Part shown: positions 25,648 to 34,781 of the stretch, one piece after another | How the letters are laid out: each line of letters opens with the position of its first letter | Position numbering within the stretch: the stretch's first letter is position 1 | Source of the DNA: Fimbriimonadaceae bacterium | Lineage (GTDB): Bacteria; Armatimonadota; Fimbriimonadia; Fimbriimonadales; Fimbriimonadaceae | NCBI GenBank assembly: GCA_019454105.1 | Contig: CP075364.1 | Coordinates: forward strand, 1-64,000 | Reading direction: 5' to 3' | DNA: 64,000 bases | Notes under the pieces: generated by a model | What the model saw: only the letters and a program-made list of their open reading frames with translations | What the model was told of the DNA's origin: nothing | Databases searched by the model: none | Made by a program: the position numbers and the translations under genes

Positions 25648-25690
25648 AGTCTACCGACCAGGAACGGGTCAGCCCTTGATTTGGTATACC
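25648..25690. promoter_or_regulatory. Divergent HIT / HtrA promoter region
   Basis: Minus strand: TAGACT at 25653-25648, ending 10 bases before the HIT start. Plus strand: TATACC at 25685-25690 inside the palindrome GGTATACC, ending 11 bases before the protease ATG at 25702. Both transcripts would have very short leaders. Confidence 0.35.
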
Positions 25691-25701
25691 GGTATCAGGA
25701 T

Positions 25702-26871
25702 ATGCGCAAATCGACAGTGGCATGGCTCGCCCTTGGCGGATTCGTCGTCGTGTTCGGGGCGGTGCTGGCGGCCCTCCAATTGAACCGGGCCTTGGAGTCC
25801 CGCCCGGCCCCAGTGGCCGAACGGCCGAAGGACGGTTGGCTTGTCAACGCGAGCGCCGACCAGCTGGCCGCCGGCGACTTCCGGGCGGCGGCGAAGAGGG
25901 CGGTCGAAAGCGTGGTGAGCATCGACACCCAGGTGGAGGGGGAAAACTGGTTTGGAGAGCGGGTGGTCCAGTCCGCCGGACAAGGCTCCGGCGTGATCCT
26001 GTCGTCCACGGGCACGATCGTGACCAACAACCATGTGCTCCGGGCCCGGTCCTTCCGGGGAGAGCGGCTGGTCGACAAAGTGAACGTGACCTTCTATGAC
26101 GGCTCCACTTCACCGGCCAAGATCGTCGGCACCGACCCTCGCTCTGACCTGGCCGTGTTGAAGGTCGAGAAGACCAACCTCAAGCCGATCGTGGTCGGTG
26201 ACTCCGGGAAACTGGAGGTGGGCGAATGGGTCTTGGCCATCGGCAACCCGCTCGGCTATGAGAACACGCTGAGCGTGGGCGTGGTGAGCAACGTCGGCCG
26301 GCAGCTTCCTGGCGGCGGCAACTCGATCTTCATCGACGGGATCCAGACCGACGCCGCGATCAACATGGGCAACTCGGGAGGGGCCCTGACCAACGCTCGC
26401 GGCGAACTGGTCGGCATCAACACGGCCATTGCCAGCATCGGCGGCGGAAGCATCGGCATCGGCTTCGCCATTCCCGTCAACCGCATGCGCCAGGTGGTGG
26501 AGGACATCCTCAAGAACGGCTATGCGCGCTACGGTTCTCTCGGGGTGGAGATCCTGCGACGGCCGGGCGTGCTCTCGGTGCCGGACGCCCGGGAGGAACT
26601 ACGCCGTCGGACTGGGGCCAAGAGCGACCCGCCGGACAAAGGCGTCGTCGTCATGAACGTCTCTCAGGGTTCGGCCGCTTTCAAGGCCGGCATCCGGCCG
26701 TTGGACGTGATCATGGAGATGTCGAGCAAGTCCTTGACCGACATCGAGGACTTTTCCAAACAGATGTCGCCTCGCCGACCTGGGGACCGGGTGGAACTCA
26801 AGGTTTGGTCGGCGGGGACAGTCAAGTCCCTTTCAGTGGCATTGGACGAGGCCCCGCGCCAGGCCTCATGA
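25702..26871 (+). CDS. HtrA/DegP-like trypsin-fold serine protease with PDZ domain
   Basis: Envelope protease for quality control, 389 residues. An N-terminal membrane anchor (about 7-26) places the catalytic domain in the periplasm. The triad is complete: His111 in VTNNHVL, Asp149 in RSDLAVLKV and Ser225 in INMGNSGGAL. A single PDZ domain follows (about 275-380; GVVVMNVSQGSAAFKAGIRP). The architecture matches DegS or cyanobacterial HhoA more than two-PDZ DegP. ATG at 25702 is favoured; an upstream in-frame TTG lies inside the promoter. Confidence 0.94.
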   Translation: MRKSTVAWLALGGFVVVFGAVLAALQLNRALESRPAPVAERPKDGWLVNASADQLAAGDFRAAAKRAVESVVSIDTQVEGENWFGERVVQSAGQGSGVILSSTGTIVTNNHVLRARSFRGERLVDKVNVTFYDGSTSPAKIVGTDPRSDLAVLKVEKTNLKPIVVGDSGKLEVGEWVLAIGNPLGYENTLSVGVVSNVGRQLPGGGNSIFIDGIQTDAAINMGNSGGALTNARGELVGINTAIASIGGGSIGIGFAIPVNRMRQVVEDILKNGYARYGSLGVEILRRPGVLSVPDAREELRRRTGAKSDPPDKGVVVMNVSQGSAAFKAGIRPLDVIMEMSSKSLTDIEDFSKQMSPRRPGDRVELKVWSAGTVKSLSVALDEAPRQAS

Positions 26872-26936
26872 CCAGCGGTCGGGCCGATTGGCGCACGAAG
26901 TTGACGTCGAGACTAAGGTTTTGAGGCTGGCTCTCC

Positions 26937-26974
26937 GATAGGTTTACCAGGGTCGATTGCGACCGGAGCCTATC
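26937..26974 (+). promoter_or_regulatory. Structured leader before the pilus operon
   Basis: GATAGG (26937-26942) pairs with CCTATC (26969-26974) and encloses a second stem GGTCG-ATTG-CGACC (26951-26964). The likely ribosome site GGAG lies inside the outer loop just before the 3' arm, 4 bases upstream of the exeA-like ATG region. This could modulate translation of the first pilus-operon gene. Confidence 0.3.
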
Positions 26975-26978
26975 CGAC

Positions 26979-27794
26979 ATGTACGAGCAACACTGGGGAC
27001 TCAAAGAGCCGCCTTTCTCCTTGACGCCGGACCCGCGGTTTCTCTATCTGAGCCGGGCCCACGAGGACGCGCTGATGATGCTGCACTACGCCGTCACGCG
27101 CAACAAAGGCGCGGCGATGCTGGCGGGCGACATCGGGCTCGGCAAGACGACCATCAGCCGCAAGCTCCTGGAGACCCTTGATCCGGTTCAGTTCCGCGTC
27201 GTCCTGATCGTCAACCCGATCCTCACGCCCACCCAGGTGATCCAGGAGATCTTGGACCAGATGGGCGTGCCCACGAACTCGAAGAACCGGCAGGTCTTGG
27301 TCCAGAGGCTTCACCTCGCTCTGCTCGAGTACTACGACAAAGGCAAACGGTTGGTCGTGCTCATCGACGAGGCCCACCTCATCCGGTCGATGGCCACGTT
27401 CGAAGAGCTCCGGCTCCTGCTCAACTGCCAAATGAACGACCAGTTCCTGATGAGCCTGGTGTTCCTCGGCCAGTCCGAACTGCGTCCCAAGATCGCCAAG
27501 GTGCCCGCTCTGGAACAGCGCCTGGCTGTGCGCCACGTCCTGAAGCCCCTGGACGTGCACGACACGGGCGAGTTGATGCTTCACCGACTGCGAGTGGCTG
27601 GGTTCACCGGCGAGAAGAGCCCGTTCACTCCCGACGCTGTCCACAAGATCCACCAGATCTCGGGCGGTGTGCCGCGGGTGATCAGTCAACTTGCCGACAA
27701 CGCCCTCTTGATGGCCATGGCCCGCAAAGAGCAGATGGTCGACGCCTTCCTCATGCACGAAGTCGCCGAGGAGTACACAGGAGTCGCGGCATGA
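26979..27794 (+). CDS. ExeA/GspA-like AAA ATPase, first gene of pilus operon
   Basis: A 271-residue ATPase. It opens with the ExeA-family signature YEQHWGLKEPPFSLTPDPRF; Walker A is GDIGLGKTT (about residues 50-58) and Walker B RLVVLIDEAH (about 124-133); GGVPRVISQLADNALL is also typical. Classical ExeA has a membrane helix and a peptidoglycan-binding domain and inserts the secretin through the wall; this short version has neither, so it is cytoplasmic. Related short forms (TniB-like) act in DNA transposition, but the position ahead of pilM-pilQ favours a pilus role. Overlaps the next gene by 4 bp. Confidence 0.88.
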   Translation: MYEQHWGLKEPPFSLTPDPRFLYLSRAHEDALMMLHYAVTRNKGAAMLAGDIGLGKTTISRKLLETLDPVQFRVVLIVNPILTPTQVIQEILDQMGVPTNSKNRQVLVQRLHLALLEYYDKGKRLVVLIDEAHLIRSMATFEELRLLLNCQMNDQFLMSLVFLGQSELRPKIAKVPALEQRLAVRHVLKPLDVHDTGELMLHRLRVAGFTGEKSPFTPDAVHKIHQISGGVPRVISQLADNALLMAMARKEQMVDAFLMHEVAEEYTGVAA

Positions 27795-28246
27795 ACTTGG
27801 CCGACGCCATCCGCAAAGCCAGCACCGATGGCCCGGGCGCCACAGCGACCCAAGTCCCGGCCGCCTTTCAGCCTTCATCCGAAGGGGCGAGCCTCTCGGA
27901 CGTCGAGATGGCCGTAGCCCAGGCCATCGGATGCACCCAACCGCCCGAGCAGCCTCACCCTTCAGTTGTGGGAGGGAACGTCGTGCGGATCGAGCTCTTC
28001 TTGACGGCCGACCAAACGACGACCATGCTCCGCGCGATCATGAGCGGCCAACACAGTGTTTTGACGCTGAGCGAGGCCGCCCACTTCCTTCGGGTGCGCA
28101 GCCAGACGCTGTCGAAGATGGCCGAGGACGGCGAAGTCCCGGCCGCCCTGATCGATGGACGCTGGCGGTTCCTGAAGAACGACCTAGAAGAGTGGATCTC
28201 GACCTCCGTCGGGCACCACGAGGAAGACCGAACCGATGTCGCTTAA
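27791..28246 (+). CDS. Helix-turn-helix (excisionase/MerR-like) protein within pilus operon
   Basis: A 151-residue protein. The N-terminal about 95 residues are poorly conserved (NLADAIRKASTDGPGATAT) and may bind a partner. The C-terminal about 55 residues form an excisionase-type HTH domain (VLTLSEAAHFLRVRSQTLSK, then a wing ending in ALIDGRWRFLKNDLEEWI). It overlaps exeA by 4 bp and pilM by 11 bp, so it is tightly co-translated with pilus genes. A DNA-binding regulator or adaptor for ExeA-like ATPase is inferred. Confidence 0.8.
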   Translation: MNLADAIRKASTDGPGATATQVPAAFQPSSEGASLSDVEMAVAQAIGCTQPPEQPHPSVVGGNVVRIELFLTADQTTTMLRAIMSGQHSVLTLSEAAHFLRVRSQTLSKMAEDGEVPAALIDGRWRFLKNDLEEWISTSVGHHEEDRTDVA

Positions 28247-29324
28247 GCTGTTCCGAAACAAATCTTTCGTCGGCCTTGACCTTGGGGCCTCCACGATCAA
28301 AGCGGTCGAGATCGACCGCACCCAAGCCGGGTGGAAGGTGACCAAGGCCTGCAGCATGCCCACGCCGAAGGCCACGATCAAGGACGGTGTCGTCACCGAC
28401 CCGAACTCGATCGGTGACGCGATCCATCAGCTGCTCAAGGACAACCACATTGCCGCGACCAGCGCGGTGATCGGGGCGGCCGGGGCGTCGGTCGTCGTCC
28501 GGAGCGTTCGGATCCCCAAGATGCCGGAAGCCGTCCTCCGCAAGTCGATCAAGTTCGAAGCGGGCCGCTACGTGCCGTCGAGCATCGAGGACAGTTTCAT
28601 CGAGTTCGAGATCATGGGAGACGCGGAAGACGGTTCGATGGACGTTCTCGTCGTCGCCGCTCCCAAGGACATCGTCGAGAGCCGGGTGCGGGCCTGTGAG
28701 GCCGCTGGCCTGGACGTCGAGATCGTCGACGTCGAGGCTTTCGCCATGTACCGGTCGATCGTCGAAGCTGACCCGACCCACACGTTCAACGACGAGGTCA
28801 TTGCCTTGGTGGACGTGGGGGCGCACACGACGAACGTGAGCGTGGTGACCAAGGGCGTCTTTGCGATGACCAGGTCGATCCCGCAAGCGGGGGAAACCCT
28901 GACCGAGGCCTTGGCCAACTACTTCAAGCTCTCAGAGGAAGACGCTGAATCGGGGAAAGCCCAGTTGGACTTGCAGGTCTTGATCGGGGACGGAAAGCCG
29001 ATCGAGAACCCCCCATTGCGGGTTATCCAGCCCCATGTGGACGACTTGGTGCGAGAGATCCGGCGATCGCTCAACTACTTCCAATCCCAGCAGACCGAAG
29101 CTGGACAAAGCCAGACCGTCGACAAAGTCGTCCTCTCGGGCGGCGGAGCGGCTCTCAAGGGCCTTGCCGAGTACATGCACCACAAGTTGGGGATGGAGGT
29201 CGTGCGGCTGGGAGTCTTCGACAACCCACGTTTCGTGCACACGGGTCATGACGACCCATCGACAGGATTGGCCTTCGCGGTGGCTTCCGGGCTTGCGATG
29301 AGGCCGTACGCCAAAGCCGCTTAG
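28236..29324 (+). CDS. pilM: Type IV pilus inner-membrane platform protein PilM
   Basis: Actin-like cytoplasmic ATPase that binds the N-terminus of PilN and links the pilus motor to the alignment complex. 362 residues. The actin-fold phosphate loops are FVGLDLGASTIKAVEID near residue 10 and IALVDVGAHTTNVSVV near 187; the adenosine motif VVLSGGGAALKGLAEYM lies near 296. PilM paralog FtsA is excluded by operon context. Starts inside the HTH gene; PilN follows after 14 bp. Confidence 0.95.
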   Translation: MSLKLFRNKSFVGLDLGASTIKAVEIDRTQAGWKVTKACSMPTPKATIKDGVVTDPNSIGDAIHQLLKDNHIAATSAVIGAAGASVVVRSVRIPKMPEAVLRKSIKFEAGRYVPSSIEDSFIEFEIMGDAEDGSMDVLVVAAPKDIVESRVRACEAAGLDVEIVDVEAFAMYRSIVEADPTHTFNDEVIALVDVGAHTTNVSVVTKGVFAMTRSIPQAGETLTEALANYFKLSEEDAESGKAQLDLQVLIGDGKPIENPPLRVIQPHVDDLVREIRRSLNYFQSQQTEAGQSQTVDKVVLSGGGAALKGLAEYMHHKLGMEVVRLGVFDNPRFVHTGHDDPSTGLAFAVASGLAMRPYAKAA

Positions 29325-29338
29325 AGGATCTTCACCGA

Positions 29339-29932
29339 ATGCCCACCATCAACCTCATTCAAGAACAAAGGACGCTGATCCGCCAACGAGAAGGGCAAAT
29401 CAGGGCTCTCGCTCTGGTCACCGTCGGGCTCGGTGCCGTCGCATTCCTCGCGGCCGGCTACTTCATGTTCGAAGCAGCCCGGAACCAAGTCATGTACTTG
29501 GCCCTGGAAGACAAGAAGCGGGCCATGAAGCCGAAGCTCGAGCAGTTGGCAACCAACCAGCGTGAAGCGGGCTTGCTCAAGCCCCGCCTGACCACCCTCC
29601 AAGAGGCCGTGAAGACGACAGGGAAGTGGAGCAACGTGCTCAACCACCTGTCGGTGAACATGCCCTCGGGTGTCTGGTTGACCAATGTGCGCTGCTCCTC
29701 GGCGACATCGACGAAGCCGACGACGATCACGTTCATCGGACACGGCACGAACCTGGAACTGATCGGCGAGTTCATGGCCCGTCTCGGGCTTTGCACTGAC
29801 GTCAACCAGCCCGTGCTTCGGTTCACCCAAGAACGGATGGTGGGGCGCACCGCGCTCCTTGAGTTTGAGATCTCCGCAGAAATGAAAGGGGCGCCCGAAA
29901 AGAAGAAGGTCGCCGACAAGGAGAAAGCATGA
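29339..29932 (+). CDS. pilN: PilN-like type IV pilus assembly protein
   Basis: A 197-residue bitopic membrane protein. A short cytoplasmic start PTINLIQEQRTLIRQREGQ carries the INL motif that docks into PilM. One membrane helix (about 23-45), a coiled coil and a ferredoxin-like periplasmic domain with LSVNMPSGVWLTNVRCSS follow, as expected for PilN. Its stop overlaps the pilO start (ATGA). Confidence 0.9.
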   Translation: MPTINLIQEQRTLIRQREGQIRALALVTVGLGAVAFLAAGYFMFEAARNQVMYLALEDKKRAMKPKLEQLATNQREAGLLKPRLTTLQEAVKTTGKWSNVLNHLSVNMPSGVWLTNVRCSSATSTKPTTITFIGHGTNLELIGEFMARLGLCTDVNQPVLRFTQERMVGRTALLEFEISAEMKGAPEKKKVADKEKA

Positions 29933-30582
29933 AGAAGCTCCCTGACGTGAAGAGCGTCGCCCTCGTCGCCGCCGGCATCGTCCTCCTCGGGGGCGGGGCC
30001 ACCTATTGGGCGTACAACCTGAGCCAAGAGGCCAAGGCCCGGTTCGAGAAGCTCGACAACGAACTGCCCAAAGAGCAGGTCCTTCGGGAGATGCTCGCCA
30101 AGTCGCAGTACGAGGTCGACACGTTCCGGGAGCAGCTCCAACACCTTGAGGAAGGAGTTCCAACCTTGGCTTACATCCCGACTTTGCTCTCAGAGCTCGA
30201 GTCGCTCGGGAAGCAACACTCGATCATCGTGACCGGTGTCCGGCCCGTGGCCCAGAGCGCGGCCCAGCCCAAGCCCAACACGGACGACAAGAAGACGACC
30301 AAGAAGTCGAACGACTATAAGGAGATCGGCATCGAGTTCACCGGGCGCGGAACCTACGGCGATGTGATGAGCATGGTCGACTCGCTCAAAAAGTTCCCGA
30401 AGGTGATCGCTGTCCAGACGGTCGGCCTGATCCCAAAACGGGACCGGACCAAGACCGGGCAGCAACAGCCCGCGGTCGGGTCGCCCAATTTGGAGGCCTC
30501 GGTTCGGATCAAGGCGTTCGTGTTCCCTGACGAATCCGAGTCCCGCGACCGGGTTCAGACGACTGAGGAGGATGCCTCGTGA
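29929..30582 (+). CDS. pilO: PilO-like type IV pilus assembly protein
   Basis: A 217-residue bitopic protein that pairs with PilN in the alignment subcomplex. One membrane helix (about 9-26), a coiled coil (EAKARFEKLDNELPKEQVLR) and a periplasmic domain in which LLSELESLGKQHSIIVTGVR and EFTGRGTYGDVMSMVDSLKK are typical of PilO. A low-complexity Lys/Asp insert (about 115-135) splits the domain. Overlaps pilP by 4 bp. Confidence 0.9.
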   Translation: MKKLPDVKSVALVAAGIVLLGGGATYWAYNLSQEAKARFEKLDNELPKEQVLREMLAKSQYEVDTFREQLQHLEEGVPTLAYIPTLLSELESLGKQHSIIVTGVRPVAQSAAQPKPNTDDKKTTKKSNDYKEIGIEFTGRGTYGDVMSMVDSLKKFPKVIAVQTVGLIPKRDRTKTGQQQPAVGSPNLEASVRIKAFVFPDESESRDRVQTTEEDAS

Positions 30583-31241
30583 AGACTGACAACAAACGGA
30601 CGTTCGTGCTGATCGGCCTGGTAGCCGTGCTTTTCGCAGTCGGTGCCTTCCAAGTCATCGGTGGCATGGCGAAGCCTGTCGTCAAGGTGACTTCGAAACC
30701 GGCCAAGGACAAGCAGGACGAGGCCCAGAAGCCGAAACAAGAGCCGAACCCCCAAGAGCTCATGGCCCTGGCCCATCCGTCGCTGCCACCCCGGGATCCG
30801 TTCACGCCCCAGGTCGTCGAGCCCGATCCTGTCGCAAGCAACAGCAACGCGACCCCGACCTTGGGCACCCCGAACCCTCCTCAGGAGCAGGCTGCGCCGA
30901 GGCCGGTCCGGAGCAGCGACTTCCGACCAGGCCCGATGACGGGCTCAGTCCCTGTGGAGCCACTGCCCCTTGGCGCCGCCCCGACTTTGGGCGCGGCTCC
31001 CGGCCCCATCAATTTGAGCAAGGCGGCTCCGCTCCGCCAACCTGACGAATTTGGCTATTCGGTCAAAGGTGTGATCGTTGGCCAAAAGCCGCTCGCCGTC
31101 TTCGAAGACGCCCAGGGGAACCAACTCCTGGTGCCGCTCGGAGGCTCGGTCGGCAGCGACTCGAAGCTCCTTGGCATCGAGCGCGGCAAAGTGAAGATCC
31201 GACACCGAGGGAAGGACAAGACCCTGGCCCTTTCGGAGTGA
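30579..31241 (+). CDS. pilP: PilP-like pilus protein
   Basis: A 220-residue protein, GTG start. One N-terminal helix (about 9-28), a long Pro/Gln-rich unstructured linker (30-145) and a C-terminal HR-type beta domain (about 155-220: FGYSVKGVIVGQKPLAVFED, then KLLGIERGKVKIRHRG) of the kind PilP and GspC use to contact secretin. Typical PilP is a lipoprotein; here the anchor looks like a membrane helix with no lipobox Cys. Identity rests on order between pilO and pilQ plus the domain. Confidence 0.82.
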   Translation: MKTDNKRTFVLIGLVAVLFAVGAFQVIGGMAKPVVKVTSKPAKDKQDEAQKPKQEPNPQELMALAHPSLPPRDPFTPQVVEPDPVASNSNATPTLGTPNPPQEQAAPRPVRSSDFRPGPMTGSVPVEPLPLGAAPTLGAAPGPINLSKAAPLRQPDEFGYSVKGVIVGQKPLAVFEDAQGNQLLVPLGGSVGSDSKLLGIERGKVKIRHRGKDKTLALSE

Positions 31242-34112: not shown

Positions 34113-34781
34113 ATGAAACTCATCAGTTACCTCGTGGCCGCCTTGTGCCTTGTTTGGGCGATCGGTTGCACGGGAGGCACGCAGGCTGAGTCGGAAGGAT
34201 CGGCCAAATCGGGCGAAGGGACGACTTCTGGGACCGACCTCGGAACGCCTCTTGTCAAGGATCCGACTCCGGAAGAACTGAACAAAGAACTTGAGGGGAA
34301 GAATCCCGTCGGGGGCCTGGGCGAAGGCGAGAAGGTCACTGACGTCCATCCGACAGGAGACGGACGCCTCATGCTCGCTGGCCTCAAGACCCAAGGGGCC
34401 AAGACGTTCTTGGAGCTCTTGGAGACGAGTGGCGTGGCCAAAGAGATCGCTTCTTCGCCTTCGCTGACGTTCCTCGTGCCTACCGAAGAGGCGTTCTCAA
34501 AAATGCCGTCTGCCGAGCTCAAGAAGCTCAAGTCGGACAAAGCAGCCTTGACCGACTTCCTGAAGAACCACATTCTCGCGGGCTACATGAGGTTGGCGGA
34601 CCTTGGTTCGACGACATCGGTCGCCACTTGGAACCAGAGGATCCATCCAATTCAAAGGTCCGGAGACAAAGTCATTCTCCACGGAGCCAACTTCCTCAAG
34701 AGCGAGGTGAAGGTGGGCGAGGGTCTGATGTACCAGATCGACCGGGTCCTACCGATGGGCGAAAAGATGAAGCCGGACTGA
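34113..34781 (+). CDS. Fasciclin-domain lipoprotein
   Basis: A 222-residue lipoprotein: signal peptide with lipobox AIGC (Cys19), a Ser/Gly-rich tether (20-90) and one fasciclin (FAS1) domain (about 90-218). FAS1 signatures are TFLELLETSGVAKEI, LTFLVPTEEAFSKMP and YQIDRVLPMGEKM. FAS1 proteins mediate adhesion in many bacteria. It follows the pilus operon but a terminator separates them, so it is probably independently expressed. Confidence 0.9.
   Translation: MKLISYLVAALCLVWAIGCTGGTQAESEGSAKSGEGTTSGTDLGTPLVKDPTPEELNKELEGKNPVGGLGEGEKVTDVHPTGDGRLMLAGLKTQGAKTFLELLETSGVAKEIASSPSLTFLVPTEEAFSKMPSAELKKLKSDKAALTDFLKNHILAGYMRLADLGSTTSVATWNQRIHPIQRSGDKVILHGANFLKSEVKVGEGLMYQIDRVLPMGEKMKPD

Follow-up and report, generated by a model that had tools for sequence, protein, structure and literature searches.

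An ExeA-like ATPase and a tailed winged-helix protein head a pilMNOPQ operon in Fimbriimonadaceae: an accessory GspA/GspB-like module that may control its own promoter

The closest described systems combine an ExeA-like ATPase with a partner protein. GspA and GspB (ExeA and ExeB) are reported to function in secretin assembly, and the ATPase domain of ExeA is described as needed for the complex with ExeB (PMC4098917). In the MSHA pilus system, mshM is 43% identical to ExeA, while MshN is annotated as a TPR protein; both genes are reported to be dispensable for surface pili in V. cholerae (PMC4624765). The ATPase of the XrtA/PEP-CTERM system (TIGR03015) is found with a neighbouring tyrosine kinase. 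The TniB, MuB and TnsC ATPases of transposition and the winged helix-turn-helix (HTH) proteins of the BldC/Xis type are also comparable with the locus described here. The literature listings searched contained no paper on this operon or on the N-terminal tail discussed below.

The window, i.e. the whole stretch of DNA that was analysed (64,000 nt), belongs to a genome of one contig and 2,741,041 bases. A pilus operon headed by an ExeA-like ATPase gene and an HTH gene had been proposed in an earlier note made from the sequence alone, and it was confirmed by ORFs, Pfam, NCBIfam and the conserved gene order (Table 1). Position 26937, given there as the start, falls within the promoter region and not in a gene, the ATPase gene beginning downstream of it. 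The order pilMNOPQ, that of the type IV pilus alignment complex operon, is present. The pilM product matches PilM_2 with 202.5 bits and NCBIfam pilM with 220.7 (cut-off 133); PilN, PilO and Secretin score 25.2, 37.3 and 105.9 in Pfam, and the PilP-like product remains below the Pfam cut-off (T2SSC, 15.4 bits against 27). The overlaps of 4-11 bp claimed earlier hold for the ATPase/HTH (4 bp) and HTH/pilM (11 bp) junctions but not for all, since pilM and pilN are 14 bp apart. All matches of the genome to the secretion ATPase (PF00437) and PilC (PF00482) lie beyond positions 1-64000, as had been stated. A fasciclin-domain gene (34113-34781; 85.4 bits, Pfam) is located downstream of pilQ on the same strand.

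Table 1. Features of the operon and its surroundings (positions in the window)
Feature	Position	Strand	Basis or remark
HtrA-type protease gene	25681-26871		upstream of operon
FliA (sigma28)-like promoter TAAGGTT-N14-CCGATA	26914-26940	+	conserved ahead of the ATPase gene within the order
ExeA/GspA-like AAA+ ATPase	26979-27794	+	ORF of 271 aa; Pfam; Walker A (GDIGLGKTT) and Walker B (LIDEAH) intact
HTH partner protein	27791-28246	+	ORF of 151 aa; Pfam HTH_17
GspB-type N-terminal tail MNLADAIRKAST	27791-27826	+	codons 1-12 of the HTH gene
Winged HTH_17/BldC-like domain	28058-28201	+	codons 90-137; Pfam, AlphaFold, fold match
pilM (actin-like, PilM_2)	28236-29324	+	ORF, Pfam, NCBIfam
pilN	29339-29932	+	ORF, Pfam
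pilO	29929-30582	+	ORF, Pfam
pilP-like	30579-31241	+	position and HMM from related loci; Pfam below cut-off
pilQ-like secretin, 922 aa	31246-34014	+	ORF, Pfam, NCBIfam

Over its 271 residues the ATPase gave only ATPase-type families in Pfam (AAA_22, 79.4 bits; TniB, 25.4 bits against a cut-off of 22.4) and no peptidoglycan-binding domain; the earlier description of a TniB-like protein free of such a domain thus stands, the former as a family match. Alignment of the ATPases (A1) showed G50, G53, G55, K56, T57 and D130 to be invariant and E131 nearly so. With its ExeA-like AAA+ domain and both Walker motifs, the protein belongs to the broad GspA/ExeA type. It is not a strict GspA of the type II secretion system (T2SS), being without the membrane segment and the periplasmic peptidoglycan-binding region. 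The locus resembles GspA-GspB in this domain, in the partner gene directly downstream and in a tail matching in both directions of comparison, but the partner carries HTH_17 instead of a membrane segment with an HR/T2SSB domain, and the pair is located in a type IV pilus operon rather than with a T2SS. The best NCBIfam match was to the XrtA/PEP-CTERM ATPase (200.3 bits), though below the cut-off of 324.5, and neither exosortase nor polysaccharide genes were found in the operon by ORFs and Pfam. With MshM-MshN the locus shares an ExeA-like ATPase and a partner within a pilus operon; in the tree, however, MshM of Legionella sits far off on a long branch.

The quick tree (66 rows, some branches long) placed all HTH-paired ATPases, including that of the single paired genome outside the order, and two HTH-less ones on one side of a branch (98, starred). 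The mobile-element-like ATPases of the phylum's other classes formed a separate group (10 of 11 rows; 99, starred), as did the GspA-type ATPases (99, starred). From weak family matches such as TniB and from a fold like those of MuB and TnsC, a transposition ATPase could be considered, but the window ATPase stands apart from the mobile-element ATPases in the tree, and no transposase partner gene was found among the ORFs scanned around the operon. Those other classes (loci L148-L172, e.g. L168:3476-5942 and L154:5100-7989) often show, behind an ExeA/MuB-like ATPase of about 290 aa, a small tailed protein whose end is ribbon-helix-helix-like; some loci add a replication-O-like protein (L168: PF04492, 40.7 bits), which makes a mobile-element-like trio.

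Outside ExeA-like ATPases, 37-44% identical to that of the window, were taken from one scan as the best 80 of 545 loci; none is titled Armatimonadota and some are titled only 'bacterium'. Pil-type matches were found near 5 of these 80 (one PilM, two PilQ), so the pilus link is not general to ExeA-like ATPases. The nearest outside rows of the tree are L180 and L189/L190. In L180 (6001-8199, a Planctomycetota MAG) an HD-domain protein (PF13487, 75.5 bits) is encoded behind the ATPase, and in L189 (173-3692) CheA, the ATPase and a tailed CheW beginning MDIAEIRKKAKKKK form one gene run. The latter case is similar in having a cytoplasmic partner with such a start, and differs in its CheW output domain and chemotaxis context.

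The excisionase-type HTH noted earlier was borne out by HTH_17 (PF12728, 46.3 bits against a cut-off of 27, residues 90-137) and by the NCBIfam family 'excise' (TIGR01764, 31.1 against 28.8). The nearest solved folds are BldC-DNA (TMt 0.73-0.81), RacA-DNA (TMt 0.53-0.60) and Xis proteins. The E-values are weak (0.02 and above), which is to be expected of a domain of about 50 residues. Common to the relatives are residues 1-12 of the form MN[LF][AV]DAIRxA, followed by a linker that varies and is rich in P/A, then by a strand and helix (VVRLELFLSPEQ) and finally by the HTH. In the AlphaFold model of one relative, the winged HTH is confident (pLDDT 94-98), the linker disordered, and residues 3-15 form a helix with pLDDT of about 81 and then 70. 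The protein thus has a conserved N-terminal tail, a variable linker and a BldC/MerR-like winged HTH, an architecture new here. Unlike BldC/Xis proteins, it possesses the extra tail and linker, is acidic overall and has no integrase in its operon.

By family score, fold and residues the domain is of the DNA-binding type, and DNA binding is predicted. Conservation extends to the wing G[KR]WRF and to basic residues flanking it, as expected of a DNA binder. An HTH fold can also serve protein binding, as in RodZ, whose HTH binds the actin-like MreB, and the partner could act as an adaptor between the ATPase and PilM, or a different component of the pilus, without any DNA target. This would agree with the acidity of the proteins (mean net charge -6.6), with the near-neutral HTH core (mean -0.6) and its acid-rich recognition helix with few basic residues, and with pilM as the next gene, overlapping in most loci. 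The retained basic wing and the persistence of the pair away from pilM in two genomes speak against the adaptor, which is considered a tentative second choice.

A physical link between pilus and DNA had also been suggested, in which a MuB/TnsC/Orc-like ATPase and the HTH protein would assemble on DNA, either chromosomal or entering the cell, and serve in tethering, localisation or uptake. The ATPase fold does match Orc/Cdc6, MuB-DNA and TnsC (TMt 0.7 for MuB and TnsC), TniB scores over its cut-off, one of the HTH matches is DNA-bound RacA, a chromosome-anchoring protein, and ComEC is encoded in the genome. Such fold matches are, however, common to many AAA+ proteins and winged HTHs, the ATPase lies outside the mobile-element group by sequence and tree, no tie to DNA uptake genes was found, and the HTH core is slightly acidic on average, though BldC and RacA are among its nearest folds. 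The suggestion received no direct support and is regarded as unlikely.

To survey conservation of the exeA-HTH-pilM order, the HTH protein, the ATPase and PilM_2 served as queries against 291 genomes of the phylum and had matches (E <= 1e-3) in 143, 129 and 284 of them, respectively; many HTH matches outside the window's order reflect the common HTH domain only. Within the order (families f1-f5) the ATPase was present at 129 bits or more in 85 of 113 genomes and the pair in 82, as counted from the search tables. Three genomes possess the ATPase without the HTH gene (G123, G124 and G094), and a strong HTH gene without the ATPase was found in none of the genomes surveyed; G112 has a weak HTH match only (E 2.2e-4). 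A single genome outside the order (G058, family f15) contains both genes, with pilM about 1.25 kb away. By script, pilM stood directly behind the HTH gene (<=60 nt) in 78 of the 83 pair loci. The other five are L076, where pilM adjoins too and was missed owing to a limit in the start search, L063, where the contig ends at the pair, L108 and L109, where the pair is detached from pilM, and L111, the G058 locus. The ATPase and HTH genes overlap in 60 of the 83 loci (by 4 bp in 57), the HTH gene and pilM in 64 (by 11 bp in 56), and gene order and overlaps are kept across five families.

The order of genes is therefore conserved in most of the window's order but not outside it, nor in some genera within, where pil operons lack the two genes, the situation named earlier as the refuting case. 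All of pilM, N, O, P and Q are retained in pair-less loci L116-L120 and L122-L124; L121 shows a short PilQ stretch only before the contig end, and L115 is cut. One pair-less genome, G079, has 5.2 Mb in one contig. Since these relatives keep pilMNOPQ, the pair is accessory to the pilus operon, with which the dispensability of mshM and mshN reported for V. cholerae (PMC4624765) fits. The conserved order excludes chance neighbourhood of the pair and the pil genes. Hitch-hiking neighbours with no pilus role, such as remains of a mobile element, might be suspected from the excisionase and transposition families among the matches, HTH_17 and TniB-like domains being common on mobile elements; with order and overlaps kept across five families, a conserved tail and ATPases grouped together in the tree, this is very improbable.

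What ties the two proteins to each other is the N-terminal tail, which the earlier note did not mention. The sequence MNLADAIRKA, conserved at the start of the HTH protein, resembles the recurring start of outside partners, MSxILDALRKAExxR, as in GspB-like proteins downstream of ExeA-like ATPases in other phyla; in the window, too, a gene with a tail of the MSxILDALRKA type lies directly downstream of the ATPase. The motif was defined in this analysis, not by curators. A forward profile was built on 75 of the 83 HTH N-termini and applied to every start codon from -40 to +150 nt around the ATPase stop. For the 73 of 80 outside loci that could be scored, the median was -3.5, and the 1264 remaining stops in these loci gave -18.0 (AUC 0.94; p 5e-37, the p-values of the tail tests being overstated because related sequences are non-independent). 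Scores of at least -6 were obtained at 52 of 73 ATPase stops and 54 of 1264 others, a conservative comparison, as some of the highest null scores come from these very partner genes, approached via another stop. The reverse profile, from 60 of the 73 outside partners (start MS, -20 to +60 nt from the stop, residues 1-2 unscored), gave the HTH gene a median of 1.8 against -16.9 (53 loci, 878 other stops; AUC 0.974) and ranked it best of its locus in 46 of 53. The forward, position-based test replaced two variants relying on gene callers: a first, crude one that recovered the ATPase in 66 of 80 loci, and a second with 42 same-strand +1 genes, an AUC of 0.82 and the +1 gene best in 17 of 80, weaker because wrong-frame ORFs displaced real genes.

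Given two directions and several phyla, a shared tail motif is hard to deny on the sequences compared. Similar starts occur in the Legionella mshN-like partner (MSLLNEMLKDLNENKS) and in a kinase neighbouring an XrtA-type ATPase (MSRIEEALARAAREREA). The tail is absent from GspB of E. coli K-12 (MFEFYIAAREQKETG) and from a Sphingomonas XrtA-type kinase, and in the phylum's other classes the ATPase is mostly followed by proteins with other tails. In E. coli K-12 (L139:1509-3399) GspA starts close to Walker A and GspB is tail-less, as if both halves of a contact had been lost together. The motif links the HTH protein with its ATPase and not with the pilus itself, and by it the protein may dock on the ATPase domain. 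AlphaFold modelling of a read-through ATPase-HTH fusion (4 fused rows) gave the tail a pLDDT of 52-70, lower than in the HTH protein alone (81, 70), and so no sign of docking. Among 97 conserved ATPase columns, 6 were changed in two or three of the three HTH-less ATPases, too few to name a docking site; alignment A2 was discarded, as MAFFT had placed HTH-only rows on the ATPase.

Since GspA and GspB are reported to act in secretin assembly (PMC4098917), the ATPase could aid insertion or assembly of PilQ with the HTH protein as a merely structural partner, and the ExeA-like ATPase, the GspB-type tail and pilQ at the end of the operon agree with this. To reach the periplasm, however, the partner would need a membrane segment. 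This was found in 62 of 66 GspB-type outside partners and, by the same measure, in 0 of 83 HTH proteins (hydropathy maximum 1.42, none >=1.6). Pfam also gave no match to the periplasmic HR domain of GspB (PF16537) in the HTH protein; of two outside partners scanned, L191 was over the cut-off of this family and L220 below. Further, the peptidoglycan-binding domain is missing from the ATPase (Pfam), pilQ is retained in pair-less relatives, and loss of mshM or mshN in V. cholerae is reported to leave MshA pili at wild-type level (PMC4624765). A role in secretin assembly is thus rather improbable. That the pair is a GspA/GspB-like ATPase-partner module with the HTH as an exchanged output domain is well supported.

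A candidate target of a DNA-binding output is offered by the region before the operon. The relatives show T[AG]AGGTT-N~14-CCGA[TC]A about 40 nt before the ATPase start. The FliA consensus is given as TAAAGTTT-n11-GCCGATAA (PMC2859248), which this shared element resembles, with inexact spacing; two flagellin upstream regions had no clear match. The pattern TRAGGTTN{12,15}CCGAYA has a single exact match in the 2.74 Mb genome, as does the reversed-pattern control. The genome encodes a FliA/WhiG-type sigma factor (239.7 bits, cut-off 189.6) and four flagellin-type genes; a regulon shared by flagellum and pilus would be unusual. A rule-based search recognised a -10/-35 pair in 56 of the 66 upstream regions not belonging to family f3, and in 35 of these 56 promoters AACCT (at most one mismatch) precedes AGGTT by 13+-1 nt (500 shuffles: mean 2.5, maximum 8), forming an inverted repeat around the -35 element. 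The upstream half-site of the window itself is poor (AAGTT, two mismatches), and f3 has another layout with AAAACCT nearer the -10. Three loci with the ATPase only (L112-L114), too few to carry weight, keep a CCGAT-type -10 with the AACCT half not seen, and the promoter element is absent at the detached pairs L108 and L109. A leader hairpin before the ribosome-binding site was dropped (-7.53 against -6.3 in shuffles, p 2e-4), because a control window was likewise more stable (-9.25 against -7.75, p 0.002).

With this promoter and repeat, the autoregulation suggested in the earlier note is compatible, whose interpretation as a whole is partly supported. Within the pilus operon the two genes would be a single accessory module with coupled translation, the ATPase being probably a cytoplasmic protein of ExeA/GspA type and the HTH protein its dedicated partner. 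The partner would dock on the ATPase domain by its tail, while the flexible linker and the BldC/MerR-like winged HTH would replace the membrane segment and secretin-binding periplasmic domain of GspB. At the FliA-like promoter of its own operon the HTH may bind DNA. Depending on the state of nucleotide or assembly, the ATPase, acting together with the pilus alignment complex, would hold or release it, and pilMNOPQ expression would thereby track pilus assembly. Binding of this promoter with such gating and feedback is given a probability of roughly 0.4. Autoregulation from the FliA-like promoter and inverted repeat under ATPase control is the most likely reading, with moderate support. It agrees with the pair and pilM conserved with overlaps, the tail match, the BldC-DNA-like fold, the basic wing, the promoter repeat and the sigma factor gene. 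The fusion model, the near-neutral HTH core, the poor half-site of the window, L108 and L109, the f3 layout and the tail-less E. coli GspB and Sphingomonas kinase count against it. Autoregulation through the repeat is possible and the best guess, followed by the protein adaptor; the physical link to DNA is a further possibility.

A more general proposal, and a doubtful one, is that ExeA-family ATPases share one docking code, in which an N-terminal tail plugs in any output domain, and that in this order the pilus machine signals its state straight to DNA, through the operon's FliA-like promoter or a physical link to the chromosome. If so, a secretin scaffold, a TPR protein, a tyrosine kinase, CheW and an HTH would all be outputs pluggable by the tail. 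The tail itself offers a rule by which partners of ExeA-like ATPases can be found from sequence in different phyla. It also provides a docking peptide that can be tested for GspA-GspB, where the contact has so far been narrowed down no further than the ATPase domain in the work cited (PMC4098917). For the organism, the locus points to a regulator or adaptor built into the pilus operon of a little-studied group.
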